Assembly: GCA_963921795.1 (NCBI GenBank)
Contig: OY997649.1
Coordinates: forward strand, 60,159,777 to 60,223,776
Direction of reading: 5' to 3'
Length of the DNA: 64,000 nucleotides
From: Nannobrachium achirus
Lineage: Eukaryota; Chordata; Actinopteri; Myctophiformes; Myctophidae
Part shown: positions 448 to 63,595 of the stretch, piece after piece
Layout: each line of letters begins with the position of its first letter
Position numbering within the stretch: the stretch's first letter is position 1
Translations under genes and position numbers: made by a program
Notes under the pieces: model-generated
Database searches by the model: none
The model's input: only the letters and a program-made list of their open reading frames with translations
What the model was told of the DNA's origin: nothing

Positions 448-926
448 CAGGGGCGTCACAATGGGGGGGGGGGGGGGGGGGGGGGGGGGGGGGAGGGGGG
501 AGGGGAGTGGGACTGAGATACTAGGGCCCAAAATTATTTTATACTTTAGCTATTGAAAAATAGCAGATATACAAGCTCCGAGTGCGGCACTGTGAGCTTG
601 TAGATCTGCTATTTTTGAAAACTCAAATTTTGCTTCTGGGGGGTCCTTGGAAGTAAATATTTTGAGATGGGAAAAATGGGTTTTTTCAAAAAAAAACTTC
701 GGATTTGAAATATTCAAAGACTACAAGCTCACAGCGCAGCACTCGGTGCCACGCGGTGAGCTTGTATATCTGTTATTTTTCAATAGTTAAAGCACAAATA
801 ACGCGCAATAATGCGTTCCCAGTCTAAAGGGGTTAAACCCCCCCTATCCCCCTATGAAGAACATTCATGGGGGGCCCACTAGTGAATCCTTGTACCCAGG
901 GCCCAGAATGTGGTGTGACGCCCCTG
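448..926. mobile_element. Family A hAT-like MITE, copy 1
   Basis: Ends are CAGGGGCGTC and its complement GACGCCCCTG. The flanks carry the direct repeat GGCTCCAGA on both sides, as expected for hAT-type 8-bp target duplication. It contains two of the recurring hairpins (556-616 and 721-780), lying in opposite halves. A 31-base G run occupies 463-493. There is no coding capacity, so it is non-autonomous. Confidence 0.85.
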
Positions 927-1241
927 GGCTCCAGATCCCATGGCCCAGAGGACAGTGTTGTTGGTCTACACACCGTTGGCCGTCCCCGCACCCCTGACCC
1001 CGACTCCTAATCACCAATTACCATGCAGCCTTCTCTGCATATTGACACAAGGCTCATGGGTGTCGGCTCAGATTGCCTCTTAAAACAGGACTGCAAGGCG
1101 ATGGGGAGGAAAAAAACACAAGAAAACAAACAACATTCCCACGTTAAAAGACACTGGCCTGCTCTAGAAGAGGATGTCATCTGAATGCACAAGTATACAC
1201 ACACGTTCTTTGATATATAAGCCAGTGCGGCGTCTTGTTTG
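927..1241. other. Intronic stretch, nothing recognised
   Basis: No repeat family member, RNA gene or exon-like open frame with splice sites was seen here. Confidence 0.6.
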
Positions 1242-1932
1242 CAGTGGATAAAGCAGTGGTTCTCAACCTTTTAAGGCTGTGACCCACAAAATAATCATAT
1301 TTGAACTGGAGACCCTCTCCCTGCACAAGCACTTGGAATTGTAGGAGTTGGCATTACATTTAGTTTGACTGGATCTCTTCCATTGTGAAAATAGCCGATC
1401 TACATGCTCACAACGCCTCGCAATGCGAGGCGTTGTGAGCATGTAGATCGTCTATTTTCATAATTTCTGCTCTAATATTTGACAACTTGACCAATGTTTG
1501 ACAGGAGGTACTAAAAAGGTCTTTAAAGTCCTTAAATTGACACTTAAAACAATGTTATAATTTAGCTAAACATCTGGGGACCCCGCAAAATAATTTGGGG
1601 ACCCCTCTGGGGGTCCCGACCCACAGGTTGAGAACCACTGGGATAAAGTAACTAAGTACATAATGTACTCAAGTACTGTAATTTTGAGGTATTTTGTTTT
1701 ACTTTACCAATTTGTTGTTTGTTTGTTTGTTTATTTCCAATTTTCAGTACTTTTACTTCTACTGCCTACACCTCAGAGGCAAATATTGTACTTTTTACTC
1801 AACTACAATTATTCGAAAACTTTAGTTACTAGTTACTTTATAGATTTTCATTATTATTACAGAACCACTTCAGACGTACATGTATATACAGTACTTTGTC
1901 AATTTGAAAATAGGCTATTTTTTTTATTTTTT
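1242..1932 (-). mobile_element. Family S hAT-like MITE remnant, interrupted by a hAT
   Basis: CAGTGGATAAAG at 1242 continues after 1640 as TAACTAAGTACA. Together they rebuild the end seen in other S copies (CAGTGGTGTAAAGTAACTA). A 387-bp hAT element has therefore landed inside the terminal repeat. The S body runs to about 1925 with its typical TACTTTTACTTCTACT motif; the far end is lost. Confidence 0.75.
1254..1640. mobile_element. Family C hAT MITE with perfect 8-bp TSD
   Basis: Starts CAGTGGTTCTCAACC and ends GGTTGAGAACCACTG. Flanked on both sides by GGATAAAG (1246-1253 and 1641-1648), a perfect 8-bp target duplication. The centre holds a very clean hairpin (1387-1459), whose arms carry CATG where most other families carry CAAG, changed on both sides of the stem. 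Confidence 0.95.
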
Positions 1933-1944
1933 TTTTACATTTGT

Positions 1945-2230
1945 GTCCGGGTAGCTCAGTCAGTAGAGCTCTCACCTTTGGACCACAAGGTCATGGGTTC
2001 GATTCCGAGCACCGCCAACTCAGTGTATGAGTAGCAGGGCTTGGGTGCGGCGAGTCGTGCAGCAAGTACTGGGAGTTGATGGTAGGTGTGGCGCTCCACC
2101 TCAGCAATCCATCTCCCAGGGTTCTAGCTCATTCTAACGGGGACAGACTCCCGCGTGTTACCGGCTGATACCGACAATAAGCCACTCCTGATCTACTTGT
2201 TAATACATTTTATAAATAGACAATTAAAGC
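1945..2230 (+). repeat. tRNA-derived SINE
   Basis: The head contains an RNA polymerase III A box (TAGCTCAGTCAG, 1952-1963) and a perfect B box (GGTTCGATTCC, 1996-2006) at tRNA spacing. It is followed by a non-tRNA body of about 150 bp. The acceptor and anticodon stems do not pair properly, so this is a SINE head and not a functional tRNA gene. The 3' end is not sharply defined; the AT-rich stretch after 2190 is probably near it. Confidence 0.8.
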
Positions 2231-3000
2231 TTTTCTCTGCTACGGCAATTGACAACGGCAGCCGGATATGATCAGTGCTCGATAGATAAACCTGCCGCGG
2301 CCGCGGCCGTCTCTACTACGGCAGGAGCTAGCTTTCCACGTAGCGTCTACAACGCCTGCTGCGTAGACGCTAAAATTCACAGAGAGGTGATGTTGTTGCC
2401 TCTCGCCGGGCAGCGGGGCTCTAAACGCGGGGGGCTTGCCACCTTTTTCCGCGCCGCTCGCCGTAGCTGGGCGTGTCAGCGCCAGCGGCACTTTAAAGTA
2501 AAACATGCAAGTACTTTCTTTCCACCACTGGTCTCGTTTCATGATGGGGGCAGCTGCTGCAGAGGGAGTCGCCCCTTCGGATCCGTCTCTCTCTCTCTCT
2601 CTCTCTCTCTCTCTCTCTCTCTCCCCCCCCCCCCCCCCCCCCGTGTCCAAACAATATGTGTTTTAACCGCAGAGCCTGCTATGCTGACATGATTCATGAG
2701 CCAGAAGACTTGATGTGGTGCTGGATGTGAGGAGCGCAGGCAGATGAAATCCCCTCAGTCCACTAATATAGGTCTCTGTGTTAGTGTGTACTGTACTGTA
2801 CTGTACTGTACCCGCTACTGTATCTGAGGAGTCGTTTTCACACCGCGGGGCTAGAAATAGGTCTTACTGTAGCTAAATCAAGCTGGCCCACTCTCTCGCA
2901 CGCACGCACGCACGCACGCACACACCCCTCCCTGGAGGCTGTATTATACAGTACACACATCAAACACACATCACACACACACACACACACACACACACAT
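2231..3000. repeat. Intronic stretch with several microsatellites
   Basis: Contains a stem AGCGTCTAC/GTAGACGCT near 2341-2371, a (CT)n tract 2585-2622 running into a 20-base C run (2623-2642), CTGTA repeats near 2790-2812, GCAC repeats near 2898-2920 and a (CA)n tract 2973-2998. No gene was seen. Confidence 0.8.
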
Positions 3001-61722: not shown

Positions 61723-61725
61723 GCA

Positions 61726-62235
61726 TAGACTGTAAAAAAATATGGACGGTGGAAAGCCACTGGTTTCTATGCTGCGCAAATGACGCTTTTTTGGCCGTTG
61801 TATGGGTGCCGCCATCATTGTAGAAATCAACGTTCATTGGTAGAAATGATACCATCTCAAATGCTATTGGCTGTCAATGGTCACGTGCAACCGCAGGGAT
61901 ACATGGGACATTGTCTTGAGCTTGCCGAAAATAAAGCACACAAAGAAGAATCATCACAAGCCTATGATCACAAGCCCCTCCTACAGCATACCCTGCTATA
62001 ACATAAAAAAAAACATAAATTGGACCATATTTATCACAAAACGCATATCACGGTGATTGAAACGAGGCTTTAAACTAGCGACAGGAACCATAAAGTATTC
62101 ATGACAATGTTTATTAAGGTAAGAAAATCAAATGTAAAAGTTCGGGGGAATAGAATGGAATCCTATGGAGAACATGTTGCTTCTGGTGCCAGAACAGCGC
62201 ATCTAGCGGCCAATCATAGGAACTTTCAGTTCTGT
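61726..62235. mobile_element. Dispersed element Y, copy 2
   Basis: Starts directly beside the preceding hAT with TAGACTGTA and runs to CCTATGATTGG-complement text (GGCCAATCATAGG near 62208). Opposite orientation to copy 1. Confidence 0.6.
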
Positions 62236-62515
62236 GTTTGATATGAAAATGTCATATCACGATTATTGTGACAAAACAAAGACAATTAAGAAACATTAAC
62301 GTGAAAACTAAACGTTTCCAATTTGTACTATTAAAATAAAGTTAAAGTCGAAATGAAAGTTAAAGACATGGTTGGGTGGTCGAGCTGATGTTACCTTTCT
62401 CCTGCTAGAGTTCAGTGGTGAAATGGCTGAGGGTATGACGTAGTGATTGTGTCTGTTTTGTCCAATAATTGGTACATAAAATGGGAATCTGATGGTAAAA
62501 TCTGATGCTCTAGGA

Positions 62516-62908
62516 CAGTGTTTCTCCACCACTGTGCCTGGGGACCTTTGGTGTGCCCCTGAGAAGGGTCAAGTGTGCCCCTTGAAACTGCTCGAAAGCC
62601 AGTATTGTATTTATCAATTTAAAATGATTTAAACTACTGAAAACAGCCGATCTACAAGCACACAACGCCTCGCGGTGCGAGGCGTTGTGTGCTTGTAGAT
62701 CGGCTGTTTTCACTACTGTTGTGCGACAGCCTTGTATGATGAAGCAGGGCTTTACTTTGCGAAGAAACGTACAAATTTGAAACTTGGAGATACGAGGTTT
62801 CTTCCCGACAGTGGCGATATTTACACCCCCCGTATTATGTTGGTGTGCCCATGGATTCTTGGGACATGAAAAGTGTGCCCATGCAGGAAAAAAGGTTGAG
62901 AAACACTG
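62516..62908. mobile_element. hAT MITE, perfect TSD, with family G insert
   Basis: CAGTGTTTCTCCACCACTG to GGTTGAGAAACACTG, flanked by CTCTAGGA on both sides (62508-62515 and 62909-62916). Family G sequence fills about 62605-62820, with a very clean hairpin at 62637-62714. Confidence 0.95.
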
Positions 62909-63386
62909 CTCTAGGACGGTGCACGGGTCGGGTGCTGTCGACAAACAGCACGTCAGAAGCCGATGTCTTCAAGGCGCCTCCTCCTCCTCCGCGCTAAACG
63001 GTCTAATAGAGACGCCTGATTTCTCATGTTCAGAACATGTGTCCCTCAGCCTCTGTTTACGCAGAGCCGGTTATTTTTTGTGCCATGGTTGGGTTCACTG
63101 TCAAAGCCAATTAAGGCGGCACAAATGAAGATGGAGGATGCGGGGCCTCGGGCCAGGAGAGCAGAGCACCAGGGCCAAGTTAGCCTATCCTCTCTCCTCC
63201 ATTCTAGGGCTAACTCCATTAGGGAACACATATGGCATGGGGTGCCTCATTCAATTGGCAAGTTGTAAAGAATTACAATCGAGGGTTTAAAAATAAGTGA
63301 GATTTACGTAGATTTGCTCTCTCTCTCTCTCTCTCACTGGTGAAATGAAATTACGGTAATTGTGGTTATTCGATTATTTAAATGAA
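62909..63386. other. Intronic stretch, nothing recognised
   Basis: A short CT tract lies near 63319-63335. No element ends or gene seen. Confidence 0.5.
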
Positions 63387-63595
63387 CCACTTAAACCCCA
63401 GTGTCCGTATTGTGGCTGAGGGGAAAGCTGCTTTCGCTGAAAATGGCAGAGCGACAAGCTCACGACGCGTTGCGTCACAACCGCGCCGTGAGCTTGTCTA
63501 TCGGCTATTTTCAGCGAAAGCTTTCCTCCCACAATAACAGAAAACGGTAAAGAGTGCCCCGAGGGACTCCATTCGACCATATGGGGTTTAAGTGG
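63387..63595. mobile_element. Family P TTAA-type MITE, second copy
   Basis: CCACTTAAACCCC and GGGGTTTAAGTGG ends; TGAA at the left and TTAA at the right. The long stem at 63431-63520 extends the hairpin outward (GAAAGCTGCTTTCGCTGAAA and mirror), with a mutated arm (GGCAGAGCGACAAGC) on the left. Confidence 0.85.

Follow-up and report, generated by a model that had tools for sequence, protein, structure and literature searches.

MITEs (miniature inverted-repeat transposable elements) are usually viewed as ends plus filler. In a 64,000-nt stretch of the genome of the myctophid fish Nannobrachium achirus (assembly GCA_963921795.1, contig OY997649.1, forward-strand positions 60,159,777 to 60,223,776; the whole of this stretch is called the window below), one piece of that filler, a hairpin, is common to elements with unlike ends. 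Sequence comparison shows the hairpin to be a single homologous unit, about 73 bp long, two-armed and sharply bordered. Its presence in different carriers, with hundreds of thousands of copies in a genome of 1.66 Gb, implies that MITE interiors can have a history of their own. We put at roughly 45% the probability that the hairpin was captured rarely, by template switching and by nested insertion, and was then amplified by its carriers.

According to this proposal, the hairpin would be a hitch-hiking palindromic module, long resident beside the terminal repeat of a TTAA-type (piggyBac-like) MITE lineage. It would have entered several hAT carriers by nested insertion of a hairpin-bearing TTAA-type MITE. 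In the remaining carriers a nascent strand would have switched template at the hairpin base, copied the hairpin, folded back onto its own arm over several bases and then returned. Each capture would subsequently have been amplified by the transposase of the carrier. Such snap-back copying would leave palindromic, non-homologous letters outside the core, paired arm changes, a single tip reversal and no duplication common to the types. In the available portions of the respective sources, template switching is described as creating or fixing hairpin stems (PMC8794818), homogenising arms and inverting spacers (PMC8604942) and extending the identity between arms (PMC3820800).

Abundance of the hairpin

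The arm pattern AATAGCMGATCTACAAGC, allowing up to three mismatches, matched 75 times in the window, compared with a mean of 0.05 and a maximum of one match in 100 dinucleotide shuffles. An earlier note on this DNA had listed 33 intact or near-intact hairpins and 11 single arms. At the same threshold both arms were recovered in 30 of the 33, and one good arm, accompanied by a shortened or damaged second arm, in the other three (26141, 31401 and 50424); an arm was found at all 11 single-arm positions. An arm at 760 and a split-arm relative at about 35413-35587 were absent from that list. In the latter (35362-35620) some 10-12 bases are added at the same position of both arms, and its pattern gave no match in 200 plain shuffles. 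The exact 18-base arm occurs 228,852 times (114,380 + 114,472) in the whole genome of 1,658,514,493 bases, where the exact reversed arm pattern has no match. An arm-blind sample, consisting of 20 stretches of 10 kb taken at position 20.0 Mb of contigs C1-C20 (loci L010-L029), contained 116 arms with up to three mismatches per 200 kb. This background density of 0.58 per kb scales to about 0.96 million arms genome-wide, a rough estimate from a small and uneven sample, and the arm density of the window is about twice as high.

Single-strand DNA folding of four hairpins, two from the window and two from other loci, gave energies of -38.9 to -48.7 kcal/mol (z of -12.7 to -17.4). No Rfam family exceeded its gathering score, either in the window or in a more permissive test of one hairpin; the best result was MIR2600, with 55.6 bits versus the 98 required for assignment to a microRNA or other known RNA family. 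Longer hairpin patterns gave no match in viral and prokaryote contigs. The sole arm match in the viral contigs, taken as chance, lies inside sequence resembling a bacterial gene, which we presume to be groEL-like. Six arm strings compared with printed sequences in the literature led to 19 papers on unrelated subjects, as far as titles and the beginnings of abstracts tell. No description of a hairpin common to several MITEs was recognised in the literature searched, which did not extend to repeat libraries or subscription journals, and we make no claim that it is unpublished.

Carrier families and their ends

Carrier families were defined by flank clustering and not from a repeat library, using for the window 150-base flanks and a score of at least 50. 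The 45 arm-bearing places of the window thereby fell into families A (20), B (7), C (5), D (2) and E (2), with nine singletons. Weaker scores and shared ends, partly judged by eye, add 61669 to D and 48685 to C, pair 41776 with 63431 and place 27163 among the TTAA types, giving about ten flank types in the window that are not all unrelated. In the full sample, comprising the window, the 20 arm-blind stretches and loci picked at arms, clustering of 354 arms, from 124 two-armed hairpins and 106 single arms, yielded A 55, H 34, D 23, C 18, B 17, E 10, C1 7 and T 5, plus small groups and singletons; types U, K, Hb, Hc and H1 have one or two copies each. The thirteen flank types perhaps represent five unrelated lineages. 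Among the unselected loci (window plus L010-L029), 8 of 63 two-armed hairpins are singletons by flank, and four of these eight resemble named types by eye.

Ends of hAT elements are of the C/TA..G kind, and the hAT carriers (B, D, T and 41615, as well as A) agree with this rule in having CAGTGG, TAGGGC, CARGGG or CAGGGG at their ends. Target duplications of 8 bp accompany B (GAGGAGGG), D (GGATAAAG), T (CTGCTGAC/CTGCTGAG, with one change) and the element at 41615 (CTGTAAAG), whereas in family A the flanking repeats have nine (448-926) and seven (3001-3505) matching bases. We take family B to be Tol2-like. Besides hAT types, the carriers comprise a TTAA type (in the window 41728-41921, 63383-63599, 37377-38358 and 47424 to about 48040), an ATATCG type (for instance 5565-5805) and a type with an 8-base direct repeat. 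The terminal repeats thus confirm that the carriers differ in ends and targets, as had been claimed from hAT 8-bp duplications, TTAA and ATATCG types. Within copies of the larger families (A, B, C, D, E, H and C1) the hairpin lies at a constant place. Since neither the flanks beyond the arm base nor the ends of the carriers can be aligned, descent of all carriers from one diverged family, the outcome that the earlier note had named as fatal to its idea, is rejected. Its description of at least ten unrelated carrier families holds for the unlike ends and the non-aligning flanks, and must be tempered in that some of the roughly ten flank types of the window may be related and several hAT carriers owe the hairpin to nesting.

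Borders and homology of the hairpin

Borders were analysed with 13 hand-chosen representatives, giving 312 between-type arm pairs, and positions were counted outward from AATAGC. Between-type identity in the core is at least 0.85 at 19 of 25 positions, 0.71-0.78 at five and 0.49 at one variable position. Across the border it drops from 0.85 at -2 to 0.49 at -3 and 0.34 at -4, remaining at 0.22-0.34, which is chance level, further out. By comparison, the two arms of any one hairpin have an identity of 1.00 at -3, 0.85 (11/13) at each of positions -4 to -6 and 0.54-0.69 at -7 to -10. These profiles indicate two borders: homology stops at the arm base, and palindromy continues several bases farther in letters specific to the type, namely ATTGT in D, TAGT in C, ATAGT in T, TTTGCC in H and CGTGCT in E.

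At arm position 7, an A in one arm and a C in the other is the commonest state in D (5/11), B (5/10), T (3/4), H (6/18), C (4/10) and C1 (5/6). Family A is AA in 42 of 43 hairpins, and E is AA in 2 of 4, A/C not being commonest there; the position is unpaired in 13 of 20 representatives. The common A/C mismatch in six types argues for common descent of the whole hairpin. Dimorphism at this position is also seen within D, C, H, B and E, where the AA and CC states are seemingly commoner than copy decay predicts; the simplest guess is one ancestral mismatch followed by later changes. Changes in the arms are often paired, with 12 of 26 base pairs changed on both sides (4.4 in shuffles) and 28 cells affected (10.1 in shuffles); the 20 hand-chosen representatives include related rows, and the shuffles do not amount to a probability. 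Note also that two neighbouring hairpins, L039:505 (502-564) and L039:700 (697-759), have the same left flank and, by eye, tips that are reverse complements, which looks like an inversion of the tip between the arms.

Junctions and empty sites

Sharp borders, unlike flanks and homology of the whole unit are also what an ultra-short palindromic mobile unit would show if it had an insertion mechanism of its own and targeted other MITEs, perhaps at the centres of small palindromes. The palindromic letters outside the core, seen in 11 of the 13 representatives at each position from -4 to -6, are what palindromic targets would give, family E resembles a palindromic element with CAGTCATT on both sides, and direct repeats lie beside the core in A (TATTGAAAA/TTTTGAAAA) and in C (ACTAGT at 31849, AACTACTG/CACTACTG at 62637). 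However, these repeats differ from one another and are A-rich or self-complementary, none was seen by eye in D, H, T and U, and few copies (the 8 of 63 singletons) lie outside amplified carriers. An apparent duplication in type T (TACTACTT, by eye) is missing in L016:8460. No duplication recurring across types was found at the core border, and in the 13 representatives no letters beyond the core are shared across types.

The paired flanks of the sample (A 13, C 16, D 10, B 8 and H 3 rows, some overlapping) contained no clean empty site that we could recognise; three rows with negative gaps, each at a place with a listed arm, were taken as overlapping or extrapolated matches. A whole-genome search for family E yielded one hairpin-less place, two bases short of precise removal. 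In family D, GGTTCTATTTCTG, present at 5 of 100 listed places (of 133 in all), might represent an empty site carrying a 3-base ATT repeat or, equally well, a microhomology deletion. The E and D patterns require exact flanks and thus miss diverged, older relatives, which are those possibly empty. With neither a recurring duplication nor a clean empty site, the independent mobility that the earlier note had entertained is not established, and we regard a dedicated insertion mechanism as somewhat unlikely.

The TTAA-type lineage and nested insertion

In six of the seven window copies of family B, a TTAA-type end like TTAACCACTTTAGCCCTATTTTATACCTAGGCTATTTG lies just past one arm, differing from it at 0-3 of 16 bases: no mismatch at 52459-52444 (-), two at 20996-20981 (-) and 26212-26197 (-), and three at 8970-8955 (-), 19890 (+) and 33024 (+). 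Ends like TTAACCACTTWARCCC are found in H, H1, the element at 35362 and the insert in B, and the end patterns gave 14 matches within three mismatches, where 2.34 are expected. The element at 35362, which bears the split-arm hairpin, begins with TTAACCACTTAAACCCTATTTTATGC, and its inner flank matches that of family A with a score of 14 (p 0.00025, corrected threshold 0.00029). Family A members at 37377 and 47424 are themselves bounded by TTAACCC-like ends, and another copy (448-926) has a TTAA-type end at 836-818 inside its hAT ends. A complete TTAA-type MITE (41728-41921) sits at a TTAA within a hAT element. The arm at 27163 lies in a TAGGGATGGGACG element with flanks like those of type Hb, the outer part of which resembles, by eye, a TTAA-type end whose TTAA is not intact. 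The TTAA is present at both ends of 41728-41921 and of 37377-38358, and in 63383-63599 the right end is TTAA and the left end reads TGAA. The end block and the hairpin block of the TTAA types are similar by eye, with a variable linker between them. The available text of one account has piggyBac-type terminal repeats begin with CCYT (PMC10175614). Set beside this rule, 836-818 reads TTAACCCCTTT, 47424 reads TTAATCCCTTT, H and H1 have CCACTT and 37377 has CCCATT.

These TTAA-type ends beside the hairpin in hAT carriers indicate that a hairpin-bearing TTAA lineage was inserted into hAT elements. Several hAT carriers therefore acquired it by ordinary nesting, and the sharing between unrelated carriers that the earlier note had described is partly plain nesting (six of seven window copies of B, 41728-41921 and one family A copy). 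Types C, D, E and T are not accounted for in this way. It could be supposed that one TTAA-type (piggyBac-like) MITE with a subterminal hairpin was inserted into all other carriers and that its ends were later eroded or deleted, and the family B ends, the complete MITEs at 41728-41921 and 63383-63599, the inner flank common to A and 35362 and the end at 836-818 within a hAT all agree with this. However, no TTAA-type end was seen by eye in the flanks of C, D, E, T, U and C1, nor did the end patterns reveal one there in the window, and erosion is not expected to end at the same hairpin base in each type. We consider nesting as the only route to be unlikely.

Amplification of the hairpin by its carriers

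Copies picked by their flanks allow the decay of arm and flank to be compared within families. The respective divergences are 0.082 and 0.075 in C (37/451 and 98/1313), 0.103 and 0.079 in D (28/271 and 62/783), 0.056 and 0.084 in B (10/180 and 49/586) and 0.053 and 0.084 in A (3/57 and 14/166), the arm figures being lowered because 16 of 69 arm ends, which had over 7 mismatches in 19 and were taken as lost or shifted, were omitted. As arm and flank decay roughly alike within the measured families, the carriers, and not the hairpin, made the copies; these counts suggest that decay after insertion is neutral. A few amplified carriers hold most copies, and the hairpin's own moves need number just a dozen or so. 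Low arm divergence had been considered as a sign of exchange or homogenisation; it arose because those copies had been selected by their arms, and the clear difference disappeared with flank-picked copies. Likewise, an excess of homogenised family A arms in picked loci (9 CC and 1 AA of 24) shrank to 1 CC among 19 unselected copies.

A hairpin kept for a function, be it a site for a transposase or host factor or a hairpin transcript that aids the carriers or evades silencing, appears very doubtful to us: the core is nearly unchanged among representatives with unalignable flanks, palindromy is preserved by paired changes and the TTAA types have two similar blocks with a variable linker, but there is no clear constraint among copies, the carriers should, judging by their ends, use different transposases, and the Rfam searches gave no family.

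Possible capture by template switching

We return to rare capture, by template switching and nesting, with later amplification. Several observations weigh against it. Family A lacks the palindromic extension, and two type U copies have just one flank in common. The mismatch between family A arms is kept in 18 of 19 unselected copies, so that arm homogenisation is infrequent. Insertion into pre-existing palindromes would leave the same flanks. In family D the flanks are 0-30 bases apart at 133 places, of which the 100 listed appear by eye to be mostly deletion derivatives (shortened hairpins or microhomology deletions); among these, GGTTCTATTTTCACAATTTCTG accounts for 11 and exact palindrome removal for none. 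No ancestral empty site showing capture was found in the sample, genome-wide for E, or among the 100 of 133 places listed for D. Cross-family flank scores reach p 0.0015-0.004, uncorrected over 171 pairs (B/D 0.0015; C/T 0.0025 and 0.00375; A/B 0.00375), and some flank types may, on these scores, be related to one another; types C, T and K may be linked by a few extra shared bases (C/T by score, K by eye). That the TTAA elements had the hairpin first is something we infer and is unproven. Finally, no cross-family chimera occurs among the 75 hairpins (of 124) with both flanks assigned, so that at present switching from one carrier to another is rare at the least; the ongoing exchange between elements by which the earlier note had thought the hairpin might spread was not seen. 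Among the other hairpins, a single flank could be assigned in 33 and neither flank in 16; truncation, later insertion or switching at the hairpin may be concealed among the 33. As there would be only about a dozen independent captures, and some types are perhaps related, every statement on mechanism rests on few events.

A broader statement, to which we would attach somewhat less than even odds, is that a palindromic module moves between unrelated DNA transposons of a large animal genome, whether through template switching primed by the hairpin or through dedicated insertion at the centres of palindromes, and has been multiplied to about a million arms by the transposases of its hosts, as a parasite of parasites without ends of its own. 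The data suggest that a short hairpin can pass between transposon kinds, all of which can multiply it. Should capture at hairpins be the route, new transposons could be built through replication slippage at palindromes, an idea that the junctions described here make testable.

Comparison with known systems

Short palindromic non-autonomous MITEs with high copy number include Made1 of primates and Angel of fish. They are bounded by their own terminal repeats and a target duplication, whereas no such boundary has been established for the 73-bp core. Short palindromic repeats in many contexts are also known as bacterial repetitive extragenic palindromic (REP) elements, Rickettsia palindromic elements and double-hairpin elements of fungal mitochondria; these belong to other genomes and contexts, and the likeness is one of description. 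Quasi-palindrome template switching is comparable in the creation and fixing of stems, the homogenisation of arms and the inversion of spacers, as far as the available parts of two studies go (PMC8794818, PMC8604942); it is known as a local mutation, and is proposed here also as the entry of a hairpin into a new element. Judged by analogy, the closest known parallel for a shared interior is the V domain of short interspersed nuclear elements (SINEs) in MER6, a MITE that the accessible text of its description derives from a Mariner element and a V-SINE and credits with having multiplied the V domain (PMC6887750). As here, such highly conserved SINE domains are a conserved interior common to elements with different ends. 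On the evidence of the same partial source, the difference is that there one domain is found in one MITE pair (MER6/MER6A), whereas a near-perfect hairpin occurs here in thirteen flank types with several end kinds within one genome.

piggyBac transposase genes

At least 116 matches to the piggyBac transposase domain were found in the genome, and none in 14 control genomes. Sixteen of the 116 listed matches are clustered on C2 at 71.34-71.85 Mb. Others have equal scores on several chromosomes, and two copies (L101 and L102) are identical over 1001/1001 bases, which suggests from sequence identity that the transposases were recently active. Eight flanks of four matches (7.6 kb) contain ten arms with up to three mismatches, located in L091, L094, L095 and L097, where about 4.4 are expected; six of the ten, in L095, come from one hairpin present twice and an inserted family C element. 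Second copies show that the hairpins of L091 and L095 belong to repeats (433/433 bases identical, and 99.7% over 601). The notion of a hairpin native to piggyBac genes was withdrawn, as the hairpins upstream of the transposase in L091/L100 and L095/L099 lie in repeats that are identical as far as read; they are probably situated in an intron (by eye). The ends of these repeats were not reached, and we draw nothing from them on hairpin origin.

Carrier copies in the window

Strands are given below where assigned. The family A hAT-type carrier at 448-926 has ends CAGGGGCGTCAC and the 9-bp flanking repeat GGCTCCAGA, with a hairpin at 556-616, the right arm near 760 and the internal TTAA-type end at 836-818 (-). 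The carrier at 3001-3505 (+) has ends CAGGGGTGTC/CAGGGGCGTC, the flanking repeat CACACAT and hairpins at 3070-3142 and 3373-3421. Two hairpins are likewise found in 11934-12494 (+; 12006-12078 and 12330-12403) and in 21569-22139 (+; 21644-21716 and 21968-22047), and in 12719-13254 (-) the second is mostly deleted, the first lying at 13108-13180. At 13654-13695 (+) a single arm remains where a family A left end is fused at the hairpin tip to another repeat family. Further family A places are a hairpin at 17375-17433, a copy with two single-arm remnants (18210 and 18473) at 18196-18487 (-), a hairpin with family A type flank at 24752-24824 (+) and a carrier at 33834-34358 (-) with a hairpin at 33922-33994 and a single arm at 34250-34288. 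TTAA-type members of the family are 37377-38358 (+; TTAACCC...GGGTTAA; hairpins 37432-37504 and 37862-37934) and 47424-48040 (+; right end approximate; hairpins 47485-47557 and 47930-47996). The TTAA-type element end at 35362-35620 (+), with TTAACCACTTAAACCC, has an arbitrary right limit.

The family B copies, AGTACTT-rich hATs whose TTAA-type ends are given above, comprise carriers at 8709-9106 (+; hairpin 8887-8933), 20734-21206 (+; 20902-20959), 25968-26431 (+; tip-deleted hairpin 26143-26172) and 52294-52650 (+; 52368-52422), a copy at 32849-33235 (-) with a single arm at 33067-33100, a single arm at 19928-19962 (+) and a truncated copy with hairpin at 23313-23358 (-). Family C carriers are found at 5565-5805 (-; ends of ATATCGCCGTTGTCGGG type; hairpin 5675-5721), 31776-32021 (+; 31853-31913; inside a hAT at 31670-32233 with duplication CACTATAC), 36915-37151 (-; 37026-37098), 49765-50032 (+; 49849-49921) and 62602-62823 (+), the last inside a hAT-like element at 62517-62907 and having a hairpin (62639-62711) with 35-bp arms and no mismatch. 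A diverged copy at 48650-48817 (+; left limit approximate) has its hairpin at 48685-48746 and an end ATATCGTTGCTGTCGGG. Family D is represented by a hAT carrier with ends CAGTGGTTCTCAACC at 1254-1640 (+; hairpin 1387-1459), an inner part at 31325-31529 (-; 31405-31470) and a CAGTGGTTCTCAACC copy at 61451-61722 (+) with a single arm at 61671-61706. The family E palindromic element at 50393-50479 (+), where CAGTCATT was seen on both sides by eye, has a tip-deleted hairpin at 50429-50457 and lies inside a carrier starting at 50204 with CAGTGTTGATTTCGTCG. A hAT-like CAGTGTTGATTTCGTCG carrier at 57952-58381 (+), with flanking repeat ACAGAGACA, holds a family E single arm at 58130-58165.

Among the smaller types, the type U hairpin at 11310-11376 has its right flank, and not its left, in common with L011:7388. 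The single arm at 24547-24575 (+) has a right flank like that of L015:6741 (type K, by eye). A hAT-type carrier (TAGGGATGGGACGATA) at 27048-27403 (+) has a single arm at 27166-27232 and flanks as in type Hb (by eye), and an element with ends AGTTGYGTTTCCATAAA at 28153-28867 (+) has a diverged single arm at 28559-28610. The type T hAT carrier at 29637-30030 (+), with TAGGGCTGTCACGATTA, has its hairpin at 29856-29911. The family H TTAA-type MITE at 41728-41921 (+; TTAACCACTTGAACCC), nested in the hAT at 41615-42141, has its hairpin at 41777-41821, and the type H1 MITE at 63383-63599 (+; TGAACCACTTAAACCC...GGGTTTAAGTGGTTAA) at 63439-63512.

Other features of the window

A 588-aa open frame at 59120-60886 (+) resembles what we take to be part of the reverse-transcriptase protein of a long interspersed nuclear element (LINE). 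Minus-strand open frames at 32236-32637 and 54199-54612 resemble TTC28 exons, so that the window may be largely intronic. Other large palindromic repeats lie at 38565-39208, 51660-51858, 9906-10152 and 7202-7356; the palindrome at 51670-51850, inside a Tol2-like hAT copy, is without the hairpin by eye. Internal telomere-like AGGGTT/GGTTAG arrays occur at 36215-36282 and 59029-59092. Finally, in a tandem array of 68 copies at 42161-45492 the 49-bp unit contains TAGTGGTGTAAAGTAA, which is like a Tol2-like hAT end, and this satellite apparently arose from a transposon end.

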